DNA of 64,000 nt. Origin: Sphingomonas sp. Leaf343. GTDB lineage: Bacteria > Pseudomonadota > Alphaproteobacteria > Sphingomonadales > Sphingomonadaceae. The stretch lies in contig NZ_LMPG01000010.1 of the NCBI RefSeq assembly GCF_001423765.1, positions 63,220-127,219 on the forward strand, in the 5' to 3' direction. A program made the position numbers and the translations under genes. Shown in pieces: positions 14,787 through 55,515 of this stretch (its first letter is position 1; the number at the start of each line of letters is the position of its first letter). The notes under the pieces are model-generated. The model ran no database searches. It was not told the origin of the DNA and saw only the letters and a list, made by a program, of their open reading frames with translations.

Positions 14787-15758
14787 TCAGTCGGCGTGCA
14801 GTCTCGCGAGAATGCACGCCATCTCGAACACGGTACCGCTAGCGTCCAGCGACAGACCGCGTGCGGCTCCGGCCAGTTCGCGCGCGGCGGCATGCGCATC
14901 GAGCGCGGTCCTCAGCGGCTCTCCCAAGCGCGCCTTCGCCGCGCAGGCGATGAATGCCGGAACCCGGTCGAGGAACGCTTCGTAGCGGGCCTGCGCCGGC
15001 TTGCCCGACAGTTGCTTCGCCAGCGCCGCGCGCTGGCCATTGTCGGGGTCCCCGTCCGCAGCGATAGCGGCGATCGCCTGATCCACCCTGCCGAGATCGA
15101 GGCCCGCGAAGCGCAGCCCCCGCCCCGGCGCGCCGTCCGCGGCGGCGACCAGCGCGGCGATCTCCGACTCGTCCGCCTCGGGCAATTGCGCGTGCAGGAC
15201 CGTCGCAACCTCCCCATCGGCCAACCGCTCGAAGCGCAGCAAGCGGCACCGGGAACGGATCGTCGGCAGCAGCTTGCCGGGTGCATGACTGACCAGCAGG
15301 AAGATCGTACCCGCCGGCGGCTCCTCCAGGTTCTTGAGCAAGGCGTTCGCGCCGCTGCGCTCCAGATCGTCGATCGAGTCAATCACGACCACGCGACGGC
15401 TGCTCATCGCGGGCGCGGTGGCAAACAGCGGCTGGAGCGTGCGAACCTGCGCGATCGTGATCGACCGCGCGAATTCGGGTTTGTCCGGGTCCTTCTGCAA
15501 CCGTTCGAGCAGCCGGTAATCGGGGTGCGAACCGGCCGCGAACAGGAACGCCGTACGGTGATCGTCCGGCACGCCGAAGCCCGGTGGCAACGACCGATCG
15601 ATGGCTTCGGCCAGCATCCGACGCGCTGCCATGCGCGCGAAGCTCGCTTTTCCGACCCCCTCGGGACCGGCGATCAACCAGGCATGATGCAACGCCCCGC
15701 TGTCCAGCGCCGCGCGAAATCCCGCCCGCGCCGCCGCGTTGCCGAGGAGTGACGTCAC
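14787..15758 (-). CDS. holB: DNA polymerase III delta' subunit
   Basis: Clamp-loader subunit. The 323-residue AAA+ protein has GPEGVGKAS (about 31-39), a Walker B-like VVVIDSIDDL, the SRC motif (IRSRCRLLRF) and LLKNLEEPPAGT, all typical of delta'. It starts at GTG 15758, only 4 nt after the carboxypeptidase stop. A thymidylate kinase gene, which often lies between these two genes in alphaproteobacteria, is absent. Confidence 0.9.
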   Translation of the reverse strand: MTSLLGNAAARAGFRAALDSGALHHAWLIAGPEGVGKASFARMAARRMLAEAIDRSLPPGFGVPDDHRTAFLFAAGSHPDYRLLERLQKDPDKPEFARSITIAQVRTLQPLFATAPAMSSRRVVVIDSIDDLERSGANALLKNLEEPPAGTIFLLVSHAPGKLLPTIRSRCRLLRFERLADGEVATVLHAQLPEADESEIAALVAAADGAPGRGLRFAGLDLGRVDQAIAAIAADGDPDNGQRAALAKQLSGKPAQARYEAFLDRVPAFIACAAKARLGEPLRTALDAHAAARELAGAARGLSLDASGTVFEMACILARLHAD

Positions 15759-19067: not shown

Positions 19068-19723
19068 CGGCCGGTGTTGGCCGGACGGGCGGCCGGCGTC
19101 GTCGCGGCGGGCGTAGCTGCGGCCGGGGCCGCGGCACCCTGCTGCTGCTGGCCGGGCTGCCAGTTGGCGGGCGGGTTGATGCCGACCGACGGCACCAGAC
19201 GGTCCAACTCCGTCGTGATCGCAGCGGTCACGTCGGCAGCAGGCGCGGCGAACAGGGCCGCGTCGGGGCGCACGAGCAGCGATACGTTGCGGGCGCGGAC
19301 GACGGCCTGAACCGCCTCCGGCAGGCGTCCCGAAATCTGCTCGACCACATAAGCCTGCGCGCGCTGCGCCGGCAGGGTGATACGGCTCAATTCCTGCTGG
19401 GCGGCCTGCTCGCGGGTCTGGATCGTCTGCGCCTGCGTCTGGAGTGCGGCCTGATTGGCATTCGGTGCCGCACGGGCGGTATTGAACGCGGTCACGAGCG
19501 GCTGAAGCTCGCGGCCGATCGCCTCGCGACGGGCGTTCGCCTGATCGATCTGCGCCTTATAGGTCGTTTCGATCTGCGTCCGGGCGGTGGCCCAGGCGCG
19601 CGAGTTGGCGACCGCCTGATCCGGGTTGGCGACGGCGACGGTCTGCGCCGAGGTGGAGTTGGCGACGACAATCGCGGGAACCGCGACCGCAGCGGCGAGC
19701 AGCAGCTTCTTGAAGTTGGTCAT
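19064..19723 (-). CDS. skp: OmpH/Skp family periplasmic chaperone
   Basis: Escorts unfolded outer-membrane proteins to BamA. The 219-residue product has a signal peptide ([23 protein letters not shown]), a long central helical hairpin rich in Gln, Ala and Glu (the Skp tentacles, about residues 40-140), and a low-complexity tail of Gln, Ala, Pro and Thr. It starts at ATG 19723, sharing one base with the bamA stop triplet, and overlaps fabZ by 4 nt. The Ala/Pro tail is longer than in enterobacterial Skp. Confidence 0.9.
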
Positions 19724-22500
19724 CAGAACGAAGTCCCTACGTTGAAAGTGATGAGTTTGTCGTCGTCGCCCTTTTGCTTGACGAGGGCTTTGGCGATATC
19801 GATACGCAGCGGCCCGAACGGCGAGGTCCAGTTGACACCGAAGCCGACGGAAATACGCGGCTTGGGCGAGTCGCCGAGGAATCGCTCGGAGAAGGGCTGG
19901 TTGCGCTGGACGGTGTTGATCGACGTTCCCGTGCAGTTCGTCGCCCCGACGGTCGCCGAATAACCCGTTGGACAGGTCGTCGTCAGACCATTGATCGTCG
20001 CGTCGGAACTGACGACGGTGTAATAGGTGTTGCCGGCGGTATCCGTGATCGGATTGCCGATCACCCGCGGCGACCCGTCGGCATTGATGATGGGCTTGCC
20101 CGCCGCGTCGGTGACCACCGTATAGTTGGTCGTCAGACTCGGCCGCGTTATCCCAAACAGGCTGCCTGCCTGAACATAGACGGTCGGTCGCAGACCGAGT
20201 TCGCGTGCGCCCGCACCCAACGGAATCTCCAGTTCGGCCCGTGCGAGATAATAGGCACGGCCGCCCAGCGCATCGTCCTGAATCTGGCTGCGATCGGTCT
20301 GCAATTGCTGCGATCCGTCCGCATTGGTGATGTACGGGATACGCAGGATGCGCGGTCCGACGCCGCGGATGTCGAAACCGCGGAAGTTCGGTTCGCCAAG
20401 GTAGAAGCGGTCGATGATCCGCACCTTGTCGATGTTGGGACCGCGGCTCTTCTCCAGCGATCGGATATAGCCGCCCTCGCCCTGCAGCGAGAAGACGAAG
20501 CCGGAGCCGAGGCCATAATATTTCGCCGCCTGCGCCGTGGTCTTGATGTACTTCACATCGCCGCCCAGACCGGCGAAATCTTGGCTGAAGGAGAAGCGCG
20601 TACCCGCCGTCGGGCGCAGGCCGCTGTTGAGGCTGTTGTAGATCAGCGAATAGCCGACCGACGACGTCCAGCGATTGCCGAGCGAGTCGCAAAGGTACCG
20701 TCCCGCCAGCAGCGGATTGCAGCTGCCGTCACTGTTCAGGAAGGAATTGGCCAGTCCGACCTCGTCATATGAAAGCTTGTAGCGACCCGCGAGCTGCCAG
20801 TATTCCGTCAGCGGCACGCCGGCACGAAGCTGAAAACCGGTCGACACCTGGCTGAAGGTCGTGTTCCGGTCGCTGCCGATATAGTTGAACTGGTTGAAAT
20901 CCTGACGAAAGACGTCGAAGCCCACCGCGATATTTTTGTCGAACAGATATGGCTCGGTGAAGCCGGCCTGGATCGACTTCGAATAGGTCGAATAGTTGAC
21001 GCCGAAGCTGAGCGTCTGGCCCTTGCCGCGGAAGTTGTTCTGCGTGACGTTTGCCTGAACGATGAACCGTTCGAGGCTGGAGAAACCGGCCGAAAGCTGA
21101 AGCTCACCCGTCGACTTCTCCTCAACCGGCGCTTCCAGCACAACGCGATCGGGGGCGCTGCCCGGCGTCTGCTTGATCTCGAATTTGTCCTGAAAGAACC
21201 CCAGCGAGTTGACGCGGTCCTGCGAACGCTTGACCTGGAATGTGTTGAACGCGTCGCCCTCGCCCAGACGGATTTCGCGACGGATGACCTTGTCCTGCGT
21301 CTGCGTGTTGCCGTTGATCTCGATCCTGTCGACATAGGTGCGTTGCGCCTGACCGATATGGAAATTGATCCCCATCGTCAGCGTGTCCTTGTCACGCTGG
21401 TACTCGGGATCGACCTGCGTAAACGCATAACCGAACAGGCCCGCCGCCTGGCTGAGGCTGTCGAGTGCGTCCTCGACCAACTTGGCGTTGTACCAGTCGC
21501 CCTTCTTGATCGGCAGCGACGCCGCGAGCTTCGTGTTGTCGAAGTCGCGGATTTCGCTGTCGACGGAGACGTCGCCGAACTTGTAGCGGGCGCCCTCCTC
21601 GACCACGTAGGTAATGATGAAGTCGCGCTTGTCCGGGGTCAGTTCGGCGACCGCGCTCGTCACGCGGAAGTCGGCATAGCCCTCGGTCAGGTAGAACTGG
21701 CGCAGCTTTTGCTGGTCGTAGTTCAGGCGATCCTGATCGTAGGTCGTGTTCGACGACAGCAGGCGAAACCAGCGCGACTGCTTGGTCGCCATCTCGCCGC
21801 GCAGCTGGTCGTCGGTGAACTTTTCGTTGCCGAGGATGTTGATCTGGCGGACCTTCGACTTGGCCCCCTCAGCGATCTCGAACACCACGTCGACGCGATT
21901 CTGGTCGAGGCTGACCTGCTTCGGCTCGACGATCGCGGCAAAGCGACCCTGCCGGCGATACAGTTCGACGATCCGCGCGACGTCGGCGCGGACCGCGGTG
22001 CGCGTGAAGATCTGGCGTGGCGCGAGCTTGATCTCTTTCGTGATCTTGTCGCTTTTGATCGCCTTGTTGCCCTCAAGGATCACCCGGTTGATGATCGGGT
22101 TCTCGCGAATGCGCAGGACGATGTCGCCCGTCTCCACGCCGGAGATGGAATAGTCCGCGAACAGGTCCGATGCCGCCAGATCGACCAGCGCCTGATCGAG
22201 CGTCGCGGCGGTGTACGGCGCGCCCACCCTCAGCTTCGTATAGGACAGCACCGTGTCCGCTTCGATCCGCTGCGATCCTTCGACGCGCAGGGTGCGGATC
22301 GTTCCCGCGGCAGTGGCGGGCACCGTCGCGGCCGGGGTGGCGGGCGGCACCGCCTGACGCGTACCGGCGGGCGGCACCGCCTGACGCGTGCGAGCCTGAC
22401 CCGCGGGGCGGGCCTGCTGCGCATAGGCGACGCCTGCCAGCATGGAGGTCGCCAGCAGGGATGCGCCGATGCCGGCGACCTTGAAACCGTTATTCTTCAC
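19723..22500 (-). CDS. bamA: Outer membrane assembly factor BamA
   Basis: Central beta-barrel of the BAM complex. The 925 residues comprise a signal peptide (SLLATSMLAGVAYA), a Pro/Ala-rich spacer with a duplicated 9-residue unit, five POTRA domains (about 75-420), and a 16-strand barrel ending in Phe (ITFNVGTSF), the classical terminal residue. Barrel motifs include GGxGDVKY-like and the surface loop with YLGEPNFRGFDIRGVGPR (compare the family VRGF motif). The start is GTG 22500. The gene lies between rseP and skp in the conserved order and is probably co-transcribed. Confidence 0.94.
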   Translation of the reverse strand: MKNNGFKVAGIGASLLATSMLAGVAYAQQARPAGQARTRQAVPPAGTRQAVPPATPAATVPATAAGTIRTLRVEGSQRIEADTVLSYTKLRVGAPYTAATLDQALVDLAASDLFADYSISGVETGDIVLRIRENPIINRVILEGNKAIKSDKITKEIKLAPRQIFTRTAVRADVARIVELYRRQGRFAAIVEPKQVSLDQNRVDVVFEIAEGAKSKVRQINILGNEKFTDDQLRGEMATKQSRWFRLLSSNTTYDQDRLNYDQQKLRQFYLTEGYADFRVTSAVAELTPDKRDFIITYVVEEGARYKFGDVSVDSEIRDFDNTKLAASLPIKKGDWYNAKLVEDALDSLSQAAGLFGYAFTQVDPEYQRDKDTLTMGINFHIGQAQRTYVDRIEINGNTQTQDKVIRREIRLGEGDAFNTFQVKRSQDRVNSLGFFQDKFEIKQTPGSAPDRVVLEAPVEEKSTGELQLSAGFSSLERFIVQANVTQNNFRGKGQTLSFGVNYSTYSKSIQAGFTEPYLFDKNIAVGFDVFRQDFNQFNYIGSDRNTTFSQVSTGFQLRAGVPLTEYWQLAGRYKLSYDEVGLANSFLNSDGSCNPLLAGRYLCDSLGNRWTSSVGYSLIYNSLNSGLRPTAGTRFSFSQDFAGLGGDVKYIKTTAQAAKYYGLGSGFVFSLQGEGGYIRSLEKSRGPNIDKVRIIDRFYLGEPNFRGFDIRGVGPRILRIPYITNADGSQQLQTDRSQIQDDALGGRAYYLARAELEIPLGAGARELGLRPTVYVQAGSLFGITRPSLTTNYTVVTDAAGKPIINADGSPRVIGNPITDTAGNTYYTVVSSDATINGLTTTCPTGYSATVGATNCTGTSINTVQRNQPFSERFLGDSPKPRISVGFGVNWTSPFGPLRIDIAKALVKQKGDDDKLITFNVGTSF
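22339..22389. repeat. In-frame tandem repeat in the bamA N-terminal spacer
   Basis: A 24-bp identical block occurs at 22339-22362 and again at 22366-22389, a period of 27 bp. It encodes the residues GTRQAVPPA twice in the spacer between the BamA signal peptide and POTRA1. The multiple-of-three period keeps the frame, so copy number could vary without harm. Confidence 0.85.
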
Positions 22501-22574
22501 ACACCCACCCCGAAAGATACGCCGGCCCCTGCGCGGGTCGCCCTGCCCCAGACTTGTCACCCGATCAAGTCTGC

Positions 22575-23708
22575 TCACCCGATCAGGCCGGCGAGGCCGC
22601 GCCACAACCCGAAGGCACCTAGATCGTTGAAGGTCACGAGAATCATCAAGGCCAGGATCGCCGCCATGCCGCCGCGGAACGCCCATTCCTGCACCGCGAC
22701 GCTAACCGGCCGACGCCGGATCGCCTCAATCGCGTAGAACAGGAGGTGACCGCCATCAAGCATCGGCACTGGCAGCAGGTTGATGAACCCGAGATTGATG
22801 GAAACGAGCGCGATCAGGCCGATGAACGCCGGCCAGCCGAGCGTCATCTGCTCGCCCGATACCTTGGCGATGCGGATCGGCCCGCCGAGTTCGTCGACCG
22901 ACCGCCGCCCGGTGATGATCTGCCCCAGCGTGTCGAGTGTCCCACGGACGATGTCACCGACCTGATGCGCCCCGACCAGCGGCGCCTTGATCAGCGACAC
23001 CGGCTGATATTCGGCCGGCGGGCTGGCAATGCCGATACGGCCGATGCGATAGGCGTTGCCGAAGCGATCCTTCTCGGTGACCACGCCGATCGCCATGGTC
23101 GTGCTCCCGCGCGTTCCACCCCGTTCATAGGTGACGGCTACCGTCTCCGCGGGGCGCAGCATCGCGAACTGCGCGATATCGGCAAAGCTTTCCATAGCGC
23201 GGCCGTCGAGTGCAATCAGGCGGTCGCCCGCGCGCAGGCCGGCAACGGCGGCGGGGCTACGCTGTACGACGTCACCGACCACGGGGGGCGCGGTGCGCGC
23301 GCCGTAGAAGTGCGCAAAGCCCGCCAGAATCAGGATCGCGGCCACGAAGTTCACGAACGGCCCTGCCGCGACGACGATTGCGCGCTGCCACACCGGTTTC
23401 GCCTGAAAGGTGCGCGCGCGTTCGTCCGCCGGCAGCGCCAGCCATTCTGCGGTCGGCTGGCTGGCAGGCGTCATGTCGCCCGCAAAGCGAACATAGCCGC
23501 CGAGCGGAAGCCAACCCAGTTTCCAGCGGGTGCCGCGCTTGTCGGTCCAGCCCGCGACCTCGTTGCCGAAGCCGATCGAGAACGCCTCCGCCTTCACGCC
23601 GAACCAGCGGCCGGCGAGATAATGGCCCATCTCGTGGATGAACACGAGCGGGCCGATGACGCCGATGAAGGCAAGCAAGGTGAGCGGAACGCCCGGAGTG
23701 TCGATCAA
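22575..23708 (-). CDS. rseP: Site-2 zinc metalloprotease RseP
   Basis: Inner-membrane intramembrane protease that cleaves anti-sigma factors and signal peptides. The 377 residues carry HEMGH (25-29) within the first membrane helix, a PDZ domain in the middle (VAGLRAGDRLIALDGR), and the second active-site motif NLLPVPMLDGGH in a late membrane helix, followed by a final C-terminal helix. The best start is TTG 23708, which forms a TTGA overlap with the dxr stop. The order dxr-rseP-bamA is conserved in proteobacteria. Confidence 0.92.
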   Translation of the reverse strand: MIDTPGVPLTLLAFIGVIGPLVFIHEMGHYLAGRWFGVKAEAFSIGFGNEVAGWTDKRGTRWKLGWLPLGGYVRFAGDMTPASQPTAEWLALPADERARTFQAKPVWQRAIVVAAGPFVNFVAAILILAGFAHFYGARTAPPVVGDVVQRSPAAVAGLRAGDRLIALDGRAMESFADIAQFAMLRPAETVAVTYERGGTRGSTTMAIGVVTEKDRFGNAYRIGRIGIASPPAEYQPVSLIKAPLVGAHQVGDIVRGTLDTLGQIITGRRSVDELGGPIRIAKVSGEQMTLGWPAFIGLIALVSINLGFINLLPVPMLDGGHLLFYAIEAIRRRPVSVAVQEWAFRGGMAAILALMILVTFNDLGAFGLWRGLAGLIG

Positions 23709-27932: not shown

Positions 27933-28871
27933 TTACGCGGTAGGCTGCGGCACGCCCGACACGGCCGCGACTTCGGCGGCGAAGTCGGAGGCTTCCTTCT
28001 CGATGCCCTCGCCAAGCTGAAAGCGCACATAGTCCTTCAGCACGATCGTCGCGCCGGCGTCCTTGCCCGCCTTCGCGACGACGTCGCTGATCTTGGTCTT
28101 GCCGTCCATGACGAACAGCTGGCTGACCAGCGCATGCTCCTTGCGGTACTTGGCGATCGAGCCCTCGACCATCTTGGCGATGATCTCGGCGGACTTGCCG
28201 CTCTCACCGGCCTTTTCGGCAGCGATCGCGCGCTCGCGCTCGATCTCGCCCTCGTCGAGGTCGGCCTCGTTCAACGCCTTCGGGAACGCGGCGGCGATGT
28301 GCATCGCCAGCTGCTTGCCGAGCGACTGGAGCACCTCGTTCGACGCCTCCGATTCGAGCGCGACGAGCACGCCGATCTTGCCCAGACCCGGCGACTGCTG
28401 ATTGTGGACGTAGGACACGACTGCGCCCTTGGACACTTCGAGGCGCCGGGCGCGGCGCAGCGACTGGTTCTCGCCGATGGTTGCGACATTGTTGGTCAGC
28501 ACGTCGGCGACGGTGGTTCCGGACGGCATCGCCTCGCCCTTCAGCGTCTCGATATCGTCGCCGGTCGCCAGTGCAATCTGCGTGACTTCGCGGACGAAAT
28601 CCTGAAACTGATCGTTCTTGGCAACGAAATCGGTCTCGGAGTTCACTTCGACCGCAGCACCCCTGGTGCCAGACGTCGCGACGCCGACAAGACCCTCGGC
28701 CGCGGTACGGCTCGACTTCTTCTGCGCGGCCGCAAGACCCTTGGTGCGCAGCCAGTCGAGCGCGGCATCCATGTCGCCGGCGGTTTCGTTCAGCGCCTTC
28801 TTGCAGTCCATCATACCCGCGCCGCTCTTCTCGCGCAGGTCCTTGACCATCGCTGCCGTGATATCGGCCAT
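27933..28871 (-). CDS. tsf: Elongation factor Ts
   Basis: Guanine nucleotide exchange factor for EF-Tu. The 312-residue protein has the N-terminal UBA-like domain ([16 protein letters not shown]), [10 protein letters not shown], and the C-terminal PFV-type region replaced by [12 protein letters not shown], all family-typical. It follows rpsB after 90 nt that contain a strong hairpin, and precedes pyrH. Confidence 0.96.
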
Positions 28872-28904
28872 TGTCCTGATCCTTTTCGTTATCCGAATAT
28901 GTTT

Positions 28905-28942
28905 GCGGGCGGGGCGGAGCTATGATGCCCCGCCCCGCCCGC
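28905..28942 (-). other. Strong GC hairpin between rpsB and tsf
   Basis: GCGGGCGGGGC (28905-28915) pairs perfectly over 11 bp with GCCCCGCCCGC (28932-28942) around a 16-nt loop. There is no T run after it on the minus strand. It sits 19 nt after the rpsB stop and 34 nt before the tsf start, so it is more likely a processing or attenuation element than a full terminator. Confidence 0.55.
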
Positions 28943-28961
28943 TAGACTTCGCGCGTGACGG

Positions 28962-29819
28962 TTACGCGTCGATCTGGCGCTCGGCTTCCGCGGCTTGGCC
29001 GGCTTCCATAGCCTGATCGGCATCGGCGCTCGACACGGGATCGGTGCCGGCGTCCGCTGCGGGCGTCTCGATCGCCTGCTCCTCCGCCGGCGGCTCCATC
29101 ATCGCACCGATGTCGGCGCCCGAGCGGCGCTGCTGCTCCTGGCCGCCACGCGTCGCCGCGATCGCGATCGCCTCGCAATACAGGCGGATGGCGCGGGCTG
29201 CGTCGTCGTTCGCGGGAACCGGGAAGGCGATGCCGTCCGGCGACACGTTCGAGTCGAGGATCGCGACGACGGGAATGCCCAGCGTGTTGGCTTCCTTGAT
29301 CGCCAGCTCTTCCTTGTTCGCGTCGATCACGAACATGACATCGGGCACGCCGCCCATATCGCGAATACCGCCAAGCGACATTTCCAGCTTGTCGCGCTCG
29401 CGCGTCAGCTGGAGCACCTCCTTCTTGGTCAGGCCGTGCGTGTCGCCCGACAGCTGCTCCTCCAGCGTCTTCAGACGCTTGATCGAGTTGCTGATCGTTT
29501 TCCAGTTGGTAAGCATGCCGCCCAGCCAGCGGTGATTGACGAAATGCTGACCCGAACGACGCGCCGCGTCGGCGATAGGCTCCTGAGCCTGGCGCTTCGT
29601 GCCCACGAACAGGACCTTGCCACCACCGGCGACCGACGACGACACGAATTCGAGAGCGCGCGCGAACAACGGCACGGTCTGCGACAGATCGAGGATGTGG
29701 ACGCCGTTGCGGTCACCGAAGATGTAGGGCTTCATCTTCGGGTTCCAGCGATGGGTCTGGTGACCGAAATGCGCGCCGGTTTCGATGAGCTGCTGCATGG
29801 ATACGACTGGAGCCGCCAT
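28962..29819 (-). CDS. rpsB: Ribosomal protein uS2
   Basis: Small-subunit protein. The 285 residues open with [22 protein letters not shown] and contain [27 protein letters not shown] and [11 protein letters not shown], all uS2 signatures. The C-terminus carries an acidic Ala/Glu-rich tail of about 50 residues beyond the core. It is the first gene of the rpsB-tsf-pyrH-frr operon and has its own leader (29820-29920) and a candidate promoter upstream. Confidence 0.96.
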
Positions 29820-29922
29820 GATGATATTCCTTTGCCGGTTATGCCTCTGGGAAGCGGATGACGCGGCCTGAAAGACCGGCGCACCGGTATGTGGTGCTTC
29901 CCATGCGGAGTTGAGGCGCGCT

Positions 29923-29950
29923 GCTTAGCCGGACCACGCTCCGAATGCAA
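29923..29950 (-). promoter_or_regulatory. Candidate rpsB promoter
   Basis: On the minus strand, TTGCAT (29950-29945) is followed after 16 nt by CTAAGC (29928-29923), preceded by G to give GCTAAGC, which resembles the alphaproteobacterial -10 GCTANAW. It leaves an untranslated leader of roughly 95 nt before rpsB. The 318-bp region 29820-30137 holds this promoter, the leader and the divergent promoter at 29977-30005. I see no RNA gene in it. Confidence 0.4.
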
Positions 29951-29976
29951 GATGAGAACATTCCACGTACAGATGC

Positions 29977-30005
29977 TTGACGATGGAACGTGAGTGGAAC
30001 ATAAG
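29977..30005 (+). promoter_or_regulatory. Sigma-70-like promoter with LexA/SOS box in its spacer
   Basis: TTGACG (29977-29982), 17-nt spacer, CATAAG (30000-30005). The spacer contains GAAC-GTGAGTG-GAAC (29986-30000), which fits the alphaproteobacterial SOS operator GTTC-N7-GTTC read on the other strand. The same motif stands before recA at 46431-46445. The promoter points at the small membrane protein at 30138, with an untranslated leader of about 125 nt. LexA bound here would block polymerase (inference). Confidence 0.55.
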
Positions 30006-30137
30006 CGGTTCAGATCAGAACGAAGGACTGATCCATTAACATATGTAGTTCAGCCGGCATGAAACACACCGGGCGAACAGCAGGTTTCGGAACCGAACGA
30101 ATCCCGACCGGTTGAGTGGGGTCGAGGGGTTCGCGTC

Positions 30138-30389
30138 ATGGAGGCGGACATGGTGATGATCGTGGTTAGTGCGCTGGTATTTTCAACGGCTCTGGCAGTT
30201 TCGCTGGCAGTGATCGGCCTAGCGATAGGCCCGCAATGGCGGCGCATCGTGCGGATGGGGATGGGTCATGTGGAACCGTCCTTCGCACCATTGGAAGTCT
30301 TGGCCCTGGCCGAGCGGCGCATTGCCGTCAGGCGGTGGGCGTCGGCTCCGGTACCTTTGCCGATACGGCGGCTGCGCGAAGTCGCCTGA
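30138..30389 (+). CDS. Small single-pass membrane protein, possibly SOS-controlled
   Basis: 83 residues. A hydrophobic segment fills about residues 5-31 (VMIVVSALVFSTALAVSLAV and onward), followed by a basic cytoplasmic-looking tail with ALAERRIAVRRW and several further Arg. I do not recognise a family with a known function; the ERRIAVRRW stretch seems familiar from uncharacterised sphingomonad proteins, but that is memory only. ATG 30138 has GAGGGG about ten nt upstream; in-frame ATGs at 30150 and 30156 are alternatives. The last 62 nt overlap the 3' end of pssA on the other strand. A promoter with an embedded SOS box stands upstream (29977-30005). Confidence 0.6.
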   Translation: MEADMVMIVVSALVFSTALAVSLAVIGLAIGPQWRRIVRMGMGHVEPSFAPLEVLALAERRIAVRRWASAPVPLPIRRLREVA

Positions 30390-31140
30390 CTTTGGCATAG
30401 CTCGCAACGCTGAAGGGGATCAGCGCGATATAGATCACGCTGATTGCGCTGAGCGTGTGCCATGGCGCGGTAACGAGCGATGCTCCCAATAGGACAATCA
30501 ACGCCAACGCTTCAAACCGGATACGTCGGCGCAGGCGTAGCGATGTCCATGAGAAAGTCGCTACGCTCGACACCATCAAGGTGGCCACGATGATAGTCCA
30601 TGGGGCGACGAGGTAGGGGTTGGCAAAGACTGGCTCGCCCGACCATAACCAGAAGAACAACGGCAACAGTGCGAGTCCTGCTCCTGCGGGAGCGGGCACT
30701 CCGGTCAGGAAACCGGCGGATTTGTGAGGCTGCTCGGTTTCATCAATCTGTGCGTTGAAACGCGCCAGACGCAATGCACAGAATACGGCGAGGATCAGGG
30801 ATGCCATCCAGCCAAACCGTGGCAGGGTGGACAACGACCAAAGATAGAGGATGAGAGCCGGCGCGACGCCGAACGAGATGGCGTCTGAAAGAGAGTCGAG
30901 TTCGGCGCCGAACCTGCTCTCGCCGTGAAGCAGACGAGCGATGCGACCGTCGATGCCATCGAGCACGCCAGCAACCATAATCATCGCTGCCGCCATTTCC
31001 CAATTTCCGCCAATCGCAAAACGCACGCCGGACAAGCCCGAGCAAAGCGCCAGAGCCGTGACAGCATTGGGTGCGATTGCCCGGAGTGGAAGCCCCCGGG
31101 GTACGCGACGCTCGCGGCGACGGGCGGGTCGGAACGCCAT
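30328..31140 (-). CDS. pssA: CDP-diacylglycerol--serine O-phosphatidyltransferase
   Basis: Makes phosphatidylserine from CDP-DAG and serine. The 270-residue membrane protein has the CDP-alcohol phosphatidyltransferase motif DGIDGRIARLL...FGAELDSLSD (D-x2-D-G-x2-A-R-x8-G-x3-D-x3-D) and about eight hydrophobic segments. ATG 31140 lies 25 nt after psd; an in-frame extension overlapping psd lacks family similarity. Its product is decarboxylated by Psd, encoded directly upstream. Confidence 0.92.
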   Translation of the reverse strand: MAFRPARRRERRVPRGLPLRAIAPNAVTALALCSGLSGVRFAIGGNWEMAAAMIMVAGVLDGIDGRIARLLHGESRFGAELDSLSDAISFGVAPALILYLWSLSTLPRFGWMASLILAVFCALRLARFNAQIDETEQPHKSAGFLTGVPAPAGAGLALLPLFFWLWSGEPVFANPYLVAPWTIIVATLMVSSVATFSWTSLRLRRRIRFEALALIVLLGASLVTAPWHTLSAISVIYIALIPFSVASYAKVRRLRAAAVSAKVPEPTPTA

Positions 31141-31165
31141 CAGCGGATTGACCGAGACATGAATG

Positions 31166-31888
31166 TCATTGCGCGATCCCGACAGCAGCCGTTCCGCCGA
31201 TCCGGCCGAGGACGGTTTCGCCAGCGATCGACCGCTGACCCAGCGCAACTTGCGGCGCGCAATCGTCCGGCAGGTAGACGTCGACGCGGCTGCCGAAGCG
31301 GATCAGACCGACACGCTGCCCGGCGGCGACCATGTCCCCCGGCTTGACGAAGCCGACGATGCGGCGGGCAACGAGGCCGGCGATCTGGGTGAAGCCGATC
31401 TTGCGGCCGTCACGGGCCTCCACGACGAAATGCTGGCGCTCGTTCTCGTCGGAAGCCTTGTCAAGATCGGCGTTGAGGAACTTGCCGGAAATATAGACCA
31501 CTTGACGGATGGTGCCGGCGATAGGGGTGCGATTGATGTGCACGTCGAACACCGACATGAAGATCGATACGCGGACCAGCGGTGCCTCGCCCAGTTCGCC
31601 CACGAGTTCGCGCGGGATCGCGACACGCTGGATCATCGTGACCAGACCGTCGGCAGGGGCGACGATCAGGTTTTCACCTTGGGGCGTGGTGCGGACGGGG
31701 TCACGGAAGAAAGCGGCGACCCAGATGGTCAGGCCGACCAGCGGCCAGAACAGCACGTTGGAGACGATCGTCAGCAGAAGCGTTATCCCGGCCGAGATCG
31801 CGACGTATTTGCGACCCTCCGGATGAACGGCGGGGAAGCGCCACTTCACCGTGGAGGTGACGAGTGGCGGTTTGTCGAGTGAGGTCAT
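31166..31888 (-). CDS. psd: Phosphatidylserine decarboxylase proenzyme
   Basis: Converts phosphatidylserine to phosphatidylethanolamine; the pyruvoyl cofactor forms by self-cleavage at a Gly-Ser bond. The 240-residue short-type enzyme shows [11 protein letters not shown] near the C-terminus, with the GS cleavage pair. It also has a membrane-anchoring N-terminal helix pair ([20 protein letters not shown] and what follows), APADGLVT, and [16 protein letters not shown]. It forms a two-gene unit with pssA. Confidence 0.95.
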
Positions 31889-45280: not shown

Positions 45281-46354
45281 TCAAACGTCGTCGTCCTCGC
45301 CGGGACCGACCATCAGTTCCTCCGCGACCTTGTCGGTGCGCTGACGGATGGCCTTTTCGAGGCGGCCCGACAATTCGGGGTTCTCGCGCAGGTAGGTCTT
45401 GGCGTTCTCGCGGCCCTGCCCGATGCGGATCGAATCGTAGCTGAACCACGAACCGGACTTCTCGACGAGGCCCGCCTTCACGCCGAGATCGAGGATCTCG
45501 CCAATCTTGGAGATGCCCTCGCCGTACATGATGTCGAATTCGACCTGCTTGAACGGCGGTGCGACCTTGTTCTTCACCACCTTCACGCGGGTGGCGTTGC
45601 CGGTGATCTCCTCGCCGGCCTTGATCGCGCCGGTGCGGCGGATGTCGAGGCGGACGGACGCGTAGAACTTCAGCGCGTTGCCGCCCGTCGTCGTCTCCGG
45701 ATTGCCGTACATCACGCCGATCTTCATGCGCAGCTGGTTGATGAAGATCACCATGCAGCGCGAACGGCTGATCGAGCCGGTCAGCTTGCGCAGGCTCTGC
45801 GACATCAGGCGGGCCTGAAGACCGACATGGCTGTCGCCCATCTCGCCCTCGATCTCCGCGCGCGGGACGAGCGCGGCGACCGAGTCGACGACGAGCACGT
45901 CGATCGCGTTGGAGCGGACGAGCGTGTCGACGATCTCCAGCGCCTGCTCGCCGGTATCCGGCTGCGACACGATCAGTTCGTCGATGTTGACGCCCAACTT
46001 CTTGGCATAGACGGGGTCGAGCGCGTGTTCGGCATCGACGAACGCCGCGGTGCCGCCGCCGCGCTGCGCCTCCGCGATGACATGCAGCGCGAGCGTGGTC
46101 TTGCCCGAGGATTCAGGGCCATAGACCTCGATCACGCGGCCGCGCGGCAAGCCGCCGACGCCAAGGGCGATGTCGAGGCCGAGCGAGCCGGTGGAGATCG
46201 TTTCGACCTGCATCGTCTCCTTGGAGCCGAGCCTCATCGCGGAGCCCTTGCCGAAGGCACGGTCGATCTGGGCCAGTGCGGCGTCGAGCGCCTTTTGCCG
46301 GTCGGTGGTAGCGGTTGCCATGCCGGTGTCGATCACTTTCAGATTGGCGGCCAT
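45281..46354 (-). CDS. recA: Recombinase RecA
   Basis: Strand exchange and LexA co-protease. The 357 residues contain Walker [10 protein letters not shown] (79-87), [18 protein letters not shown]-like ([18 protein letters not shown]), LMSQSLRKL (L2 region follows as GNALKFYAS), and an acidic C-terminus (GPGEDDDV). The start is ATG 46354. An SOS operator overlaps the promoter (46409-46445), and a terminator follows the gene. ispE lies on the same strand upstream, separated by 181 bp. Confidence 0.97.
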
Positions 46355-46408: not shown

Positions 46409-46445
46409 ATGTATATGGTTTGTTCTCTTGGAACAAGATGGGAAC
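46409..46445 (-). promoter_or_regulatory. recA promoter with LexA/SOS box
   Basis: GAAC-AAGATGG-GAAC at 46431-46445 (GTTC-N7-GTTC on the coding strand) is the alphaproteobacterial LexA operator. On the minus strand TTGTTC (46436-46431) is followed after 16 nt by ATACAT (46414-46409), so the operator covers the -35 region. It lies 77 nt before the recA start. Confidence 0.75.
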
Positions 46446-54369: not shown

Positions 54370-54444
54370 CTTGCCGAGGGTCGGTACTCGCCCATCATCG
54401 ACAATGTTCTTGATACGTTCTGATTGCCATCGTACCATCGCGGC

Positions 54445-55515
54445 ATGGCAAACACCCGGCCCGTGCGCGGTGCGACTCACAATGTGGAGAGCCGGCGATT
54501 CAACCTGCCGCAGGTGGAAGCCGACGGAGACTGGCTGGATGAGCGGGAGGGGATCGACGGCGCGCTGGCGCCGCTGAAGACGACGGTCACCGTCGAGCGG
54601 CCGCGGACGATCATCAGCCGCAATGCCTCGCCCGACGTGCCGTTCGACCGTTCGATCAATCCCTATCGGGGGTGCGAGCATGGCTGCATCTACTGCTTCG
54701 CGCGGCCGAGCCACGCATTCCACGACCTGTCGCCGGGGCTGGATTTCGAAAGTCGGCTGTTCGTGAAGCCGGATGCCGCAATGCTGTTACGCACCGAATT
54801 ACGAAAGCCGGGCTATGTCGCGCGGCCGATGGCGCTCGGCACCAACACCGATCCGTATCAGCCGATCGAGCGCGAATGGCGGGTGACGCGGTCGATCCTC
54901 GAGGTGCTGGCGGAGACGGGTCATCCGGTGACGATCACGACAAAGTCCGACCGGGTGGTGCGCGATCTCGACATCCTCGCGCCGATGGCCGCCAGGGGAT
55001 TGGCGGCCGTGTGCATGTCGGTGACCTCGCTCGACCCGAAGATCGCCGGCACGATCGAGCCGCGCGCGCCGCATCCCGAACGGCGGCTGAAGGCGGTGGC
55101 GACGCTGTCGACGGCGGGGGTGCCGACCTATGTCTCGATCTCGCCGGTCATTCCCGCGATCACCGATCACGAAATCGAGCATCTGATCGAACGCGCCGCG
55201 GAAGCCGGTGCGCGCTACGCCTTCTTCCTGCCGGTGCGGCTGCCACATGAGGTCGCGCCGCTGTTCCGCGCGTGGCTCGACGAGCATTTCCCTGATCGTG
55301 CGGGCAAGGTCATGAGCGTGATCCAGTCGCTGCGCGGCGGGCGCGACAACGACCCGGAGTTCTTCACGCGCATGAAGGGCGCCGGGCCATGGGCGGAGTT
55401 GCTGGGCACGCGGTTCCGGATCGCGTGCCGCAAGCACGGGCTGAACAAGGAGCGGATCGCGCTGCGCACCGACCTGTTCCGCGCGCCGGCGGGTCCGCAG
55501 GGGGAGTTGTTCTGA
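54445..55515 (+). CDS. PA0069-family radical SAM protein
   Basis: 356 residues. The 4Fe-4S/SAM motif CEHGCIYC (CxxxCxxC) follows NPYRG, as in the PA0069 (Rv2578c-like) family, together with MALGTNTDPYQPIER and ITTKSDRVVRDLD. These are related to spore photoproduct lyase-like radical SAM enzymes; the reaction is not known. The ATG at 54445 is 75 nt after moaB. Earlier in-frame starts at 54424 are possible. Confidence 0.88.
   Translation: MANTRPVRGATHNVESRRFNLPQVEADGDWLDEREGIDGALAPLKTTVTVERPRTIISRNASPDVPFDRSINPYRGCEHGCIYCFARPSHAFHDLSPGLDFESRLFVKPDAAMLLRTELRKPGYVARPMALGTNTDPYQPIEREWRVTRSILEVLAETGHPVTITTKSDRVVRDLDILAPMAARGLAAVCMSVTSLDPKIAGTIEPRAPHPERRLKAVATLSTAGVPTYVSISPVIPAITDHEIEHLIERAAEAGARYAFFLPVRLPHEVAPLFRAWLDEHFPDRAGKVMSVIQSLRGGRDNDPEFFTRMKGAGPWAELLGTRFRIACRKHGLNKERIALRTDLFRAPAGPQGELF

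Follow-up and report, generated by a model that had tools for sequence, protein, structure and literature searches.

Introduction

SOS division inhibitors have been identified in only a handful of bacteria, and for the most part they are not related to each other; yneA, divS, chiZ and sidA, for instance, are listed as having no relationship to sulA (PMC4211646). SidA of Caulobacter crescentus is described there as a LexA-controlled inner-membrane protein of 29 aa that acts on FtsW, and DidA of the same organism as a membrane protein of 71 aa with a single helix that is independent of SOS (PMC4211646). YneA of Bacillus subtilis, SosA of Staphylococcus aureus and ChiZ of Mycobacterium tuberculosis are damage-induced small membrane proteins that inhibit division at a late step, and late-acting small membrane division inhibitors are presented as seemingly widespread (PMC13396833). 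The open-licence literature, represented mostly by titles and the opening lines of abstracts, yielded no SOS division inhibitor of sphingomonads. In Sphingopyxis granuli TFA, lexA, recA and other SOS genes are induced under anoxia; the available part of the induced-gene table does not name the small membrane protein gene described here (PMC6472365).

Our analysis concerns a window of 64,000 nucleotides from Sphingomonas sp. Leaf343, in which a promoter carrying a LexA/SOS box precedes a gene for a small membrane protein. Compared by description only, the locus resembles that of SidA (alphaproteobacterial, a LexA box, a small single-pass inner-membrane protein); SidA has 29 aa, whereas the sphingomonad protein has 69–93 aa with a long basic tail. 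DidA is similar in size and also has a single helix, but it is under the control of DriD, whereas the sphingomonad gene has a LexA box. YneA, SosA and ChiZ, again compared by description only, share the small membrane protein of the SOS kind. YneA, however, binds FtsW and carries a LysM domain on the outer side of the membrane, whereas the sphingomonad protein has no LysM match and its tail is predicted to be inside. SulA of Escherichia coli shares, as proposed here, SOS induction and removal after repair, but is a soluble inhibitor of FtsZ. TisB of E. coli is likewise an SOS-induced small membrane protein (SOS induction is predicted for the sphingomonad gene); it is much shorter and is controlled by an RNA antitoxin, and no RNA of that kind was observed at the sphingomonad locus.

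The promoter and its LexA box

The promoter is located on the plus strand. The −35 hexamer TTGACG (29977–29982) and the −10 hexamer CATAAG (30000–30005) are separated by a spacer of 17 nt; the LexA/SOS box GAAC-N7-GAAC, with the sequence GAACGTGAGTGGAAC (29986–30000), lies inside, and its last C doubles as the opening base of CATAAG. An earlier note on this DNA had placed TTGACG-N17-CATAAG at 29977–30005 with the box in the spacer, and the coordinates bear this out. CATAAG is a poor match to TATAAT, and a scan of 29820–30500 for promoters of the E. coli type gave no promoter and no terminator. The arrangement was surveyed in the 96 distinct loci that combine a perfect box with an ORF, a set without L091 and L102 (boxes with one mismatch) and without loci found via pssA. 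TTGAC is located 9–11 nt before the box in 86 of the 96, and CATA comes after it in 63; in 22 loci, another box begins within 60 bases. In part of the genus (L046–L052, L054–L063, L072 and L075–L078), two LexA boxes are positioned 23–25 bases apart at the promoter.

The box is an operator of the right kind for the host LexA. The same box (46431–46445, minus strand) is found 77 bp upstream of recA (45281–46354, minus strand; named by eye), in agreement with the shared operator type that the earlier note had claimed. Two overlapping boxes (G000:C10:341520 and 341531) are located just before the match to a LexA domain at 341581, the sole such match in the genome. The consensus for Caulobacter LexA is given as GTTCN7GTTC (PMC4211646; PMC12700426).

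The window contains five GAAC-N7-GAAC sites, compared with 1.59–1.95 in shuffled sequences; five were reached by 2 and 6 of 100 shuffles. The excess in the window alone is modest, and the proof therefore rests on relatives. Genome-wide (3.6 Mb), 106 box sites are found versus 23 for the reversed pattern, which gives a chance of about 1% of finding a box in a given 450 bp. Under the stricter layout TTG...box...NTA, the genome has a single site, the one at the window locus.

The ribosomal protein gene rpsB (28962–29819, minus strand; named by eye) is divergent from the small gene. Control of rpsB by LexA was considered and is less likely because 167 bp separate the box from the start of rpsB and the promoter around the box faces away from that gene. 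A candidate promoter for rpsB, picked out by eye alone, is located at approximately 29950–29922 on the minus strand and was missed by the E. coli-type scan.

The small membrane protein

The ORF opens at 30138, and the likely start is the ATG at 30150. This start, which most likely gives a protein of 79 aa plus stop (30150–30389, plus strand), is indicated by the ribosome binding site GGAGG (30140–30144), located 5 nt before the ATG, and by the best starts of relatives, which align there. The earlier note had described a single-pass membrane protein of 83 residues with a basic tail; the single pass and the tail hold, while the length was probably overstated by a start placed four codons early. 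The ratio dN/dS is 0.03–0.28 in 12 comparable pairs (codons 2–57, outside the overlap with pssA), and by this measure the ORF is a real protein under purifying selection.

Hydropathy places the hydrophobic helix at approximately residues 2–27 (30153–30230). The AlphaFold model of the window protein has helices at residues 2–37, 43–65 and 70–78, with a mean pLDDT of 87 and a pTM of 0.41. Just after the hydrophobic helix is the segment PQWRRI (residues 28–33; 30231–30248), of which P28, W30 and R32 are invariant in the 29 close members; these also have A54-E55-R56 in common. Among the 96 distinct proteins, the length is 69–93 aa, the tail has a net charge of +4 to +13 in all 96, and K or R before the hydrophobic core is absent from all 96. 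As no K or R precedes the helix and the tail is basic, the protein is predicted to have its N-terminus outside and its tail inside. In other genera, identity to the window protein drops to 18–37% with the plan unchanged: an uncharged N-terminus, one hydrophobic helix, a basic tail and a C-terminal AA (81/96). Four of the 31 distant loci (L063, L075, L077 and L078) fall below the hydropathy cut-off, yet their ORFs align.

The window protein matches no Pfam family and nothing over the cut-off in NCBIfam, where LysB alone appears (10.2 bits against a cut-off of 92.75). For the other 28 close members, weak matches were listed with E-values alone; the best are DUF1622 in Pfam (E 0.0033, two members) and LysB in NCBIfam (E 0.00068, 12 members). 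Residues 58–77 have weak similarity to Rz-like spanin (11 of 29 members, best E 0.00035) and to LysB (12 of 29, best E 0.00068), probably an effect of the charged tail. Matches to designed 'Pizza' proteins in the PDB (E 0.00027–0.0072) cover 21 profile positions, no stretch passes alone, and they were rejected. Neither LysM nor the SulA family (PF03846) is among the Pfam matches of the 29 members; SulA also has no match in the genome, and the E. coli control was positive. A family-wide profile search matched at least four of 298 genomes, with 19 of 67–215 candidates per listed genome scored. We do not take this result as absence, and the loci beside rpsB and pssA were examined instead.

Conservation within the genus

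The earlier note had proposed a search for homologues and for a conserved box in relatives, named beforehand as a way to refute the idea; box and ORF proved to be conserved. A protein search of 151 genomes of the genus gave a match in 70. The set of 32 close loci consists of 30 places from the search (the window's own included) together with Sphingomonas sp. A2-49 and S. melonis AS2.3; nine strong places and four of 44 weak places were left out. All 32 are flanked by rpsB and pssA and have the box within a TTGAC...CATA promoter. Nine of the 32, nearly one lineage, have the identical box GAACGCAATGAGAAC, and L009 and L010 may duplicate a species within the set. Of 40 weaker places, 31 have rpsB and pssA on either side, and the box is present in every one of these (the strict promoter pattern in 14); the nine located elsewhere have no box within 450 bp.

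Of the 81 genus genomes with no protein match, 21 were re-examined. Nineteen were searched with rpsB, which was found in 17 (G012 and G035 being the exceptions), and in 16 of these the box precedes a diverged membrane ORF (72–86 aa). In the 17th (G045) and in G132, the unit adjoins pssA, about 2 and 3.3 kb from rpsB; in G010, it adjoins rpsB. Altogether, a usable rpsB or pssA locus was available in 19 of the 21, and box and ORF are present in 19 of 19. Judged from these loci, a missing protein match in the genus is divergence rather than loss, where looked at.

Conservation across Sphingomonadaceae and beyond

The family was sampled with one genome from each of 29 genera, the window's own included. 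The box and a short membrane ORF are found in 27 genera, with 25 perfect boxes and two that are one mismatch off (L091 and L102). In 20 genera, a perfect box and membrane ORF are located beside rpsB, with pssA also there in 18; in five (L202–L206), they are beside pssA, away from rpsB or on a separate contig. In G157, the box lies beside pssA with no ORF passing the filter; this genome has 7% contamination and a stop within pssA. G175 gave no unit of box and ORF and no pssA match. Four further family loci from the sample of the order (L173–L176) all have box and ORF.

Outside the family at the level of the order, none of 22 loci (from the best 30) has the box, and a short hydrophobic ORF is present in three by a loose cut. 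Outside the genus at the level of the class, the box occurs in one of 28 loci (L121; from the best 30) and such an ORF in none. Among these class- and order-level loci, L129, L136, L139, L143, L195 and L198 are incomplete at their ends. From this distribution, the unit looks like an invention of Sphingomonadaceae.

Overlap with pssA and the C-terminus

The conserved neighbour on the other side is a pssA-like CDP-alcohol phosphatidyltransferase gene (30328–31248, minus strand; PF01066 E 3.1e-23; TIGR00473 pssA 103.8 bits, cut-off 107). The two genes overlap tail to tail by 62 bases (30328–30389), in the same phase in 97 of 97 rows. SOS transcription would enter pssA antisense; the scan of 29820–30500 gave no terminator.

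The protein ends in REVA (30375–30386, plus strand), a candidate degradation signal. The final residue is A in 95 of the 96 distinct proteins; 81 end in AA and 11, like the window protein, in VA. The overlap in one phase may force part of the C-terminal AA. In L103 and L170, by our reading, psd is located approximately 14 and 43 nt downstream and there is no overlapping partner; both proteins still end in RAAA, which weakens the overlap as sole cause. L101 ends in LA. CtrA, a ClpXP substrate of Caulobacter, is stabilised when its C-terminal alanines are changed (PMC4433202), and Lon clears SulA from the cell after repair (PMC13396833). By analogy, an inhibitor removable by proteolysis is plausible here.

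The leader

The leader, from box to start, is 40–181 nt long in the 96 distinct loci. Perfect copies of TTATCCACA, which we take to be a DnaA box, number 17 in 11,597 bases of leader and occur in 15 of the 96 loci (L009, L010, L019, L021, L024, L025, L036, L039, L047, L088, L100, L105, L107, L114 and L161), versus two copies in the remaining, mostly coding 284,674 bases of the same loci. The window's genus contributes ten of the 15 loci, many of them related, and other genera contribute five. Allowing one mismatch, 26 of 96 leaders have the motif versus none of 373 random stretches. Against rpsB-side intergenic DNA, compared in 40 loci, there are eight copies in 3,656 bases of leader versus two in 7,827 bases. 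The window's own leader has no copy even at two mismatches. It is possible, from these counts, that DnaA is a second input to the gene in some lineages.

The fold of the leader has a z score of −1.5, with 15 of 200 shuffles equally good, and no Rfam family reaches its gathering score in 28500–31500. A leader RNA as the main product was rejected on these grounds.

Copies away from the conserved locus

Ten viral loci (L145–L154) encode relatives of the N-terminal half of the protein. All ten lack the box within 450 bp, and the AA end is absent from every ORF as read. PQWxRI is present in all ten, in part for the simple reason that the search patterns required PQWxRI or AERRIAVR. Nine non-syntenic bacterial copies (L053, L064, L065 and L079–L084) also have neither box nor AA end; one of them, L081, reads identical to the viral locus L147. 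L153 has genes for a CI-like repressor and for an HNH endonuclease nearby. A search of the annotated phage collection gave no match.

Proposed function

Because box, ORF and position are all conserved across the family, it is very probable that the LexA/SOS promoter drives the small membrane protein. We consider it probable, with moderate confidence, that the protein is a division inhibitor, by analogy with the systems described above. A small membrane inhibitor of the SOS kind is plausible here because this solution recurs (SidA, ChiZ, SosA and YneA) and the genome has no SulA match. On this reading, which we favour while allowing considerable room for error, the locus would belong to the core SOS genes of Sphingomonadaceae, and its product would be an inhibitor at a division checkpoint, working in the manner of SidA or YneA. 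From established LexA biology, LexA bound to the box between the −35 and −10 hexamers would exclude RNA polymerase in the undamaged cell; upon DNA damage, LexA would be cleaved and the gene transcribed. The product would insert into the inner membrane by its one helix, with the N-terminus outside and the basic tail inside. By analogy, it would most probably delay division by binding to a protein that acts late in the process, for example FtsW or FtsN, and would be removed after repair, perhaps by a protease recognising the C-terminal AA.

LexA control and a small hydrophobic protein would equally suit a membrane toxin of the TisB kind, induced by SOS and leading through depolarisation to dormancy. 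We regard such a toxin as quite unlikely: the protein has a conserved charged tail of about 50 residues with an AERR block, and the leader structure appears unremarkable by its z score and shuffles, with no Rfam family in the region. The constant phase of the overlap with the 3' end of pssA, and the persistence of the unit beside pssA where rpsB has moved off (L199 and L200), could instead point to a damage-induced regulator of phospholipid synthesis or the envelope acting via PssA, or to an antisense transcript that dampens pssA. L103 and L170, however, keep box and ORF in genomes in which pssA was not found, and purifying selection acts on the protein outside the overlap, so that we give this explanation only a small probability.

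Another SOS function at the membrane, for example an anchor for a repair or transport factor or phage resistance, seems improbable to a similar degree; it would accommodate the copies of the N-terminal half in phages and at non-syntenic places, which have no box, but the ORF lies tail to tail with pssA and has no co-transcribed downstream partner. A chance box before an ordinary or false ORF might have been entertained from the window, where five sites against the expected number are not decisive. Family-wide conservation of box and ORF, together with purifying selection, effectively refutes it, and we assign it a negligible probability.

Taken as the division inhibitor that we favour, the gene is a single well-supported candidate for sphingomonads; 27 of the 29 sampled genera have it, and its promoter and start codon are defined. 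Its sequence diverges while promoter, place and plan stay fixed, which makes it a good case for the turnover of checkpoint proteins in evolution. A broader proposal, which we put forward tentatively and think rather unlikely as a whole, is a family-wide checkpoint in which a very fast-evolving LexA-controlled inhibitor is wired in several lineages to the replication initiator DnaA as well, by way of perfect TTATCCACA boxes in the leader, is destroyed through its AA signal, and has been copied by temperate phages without the box or the AA. If this were true, phages could hold host division on their own terms through copies that have no LexA box and no AA end.

Other matches to the LexA box in the window

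Three further matches to the box are found in the window. The match at 19925–19939 lies within a long ORF (19723–22686, minus strand) and is probably due to chance; another is located at 15529–15543. The match at 54406–54420 is positioned just before an ORF (54424–55515) that appears by eye to be of the radical-SAM repair type and is a possible further SOS gene.
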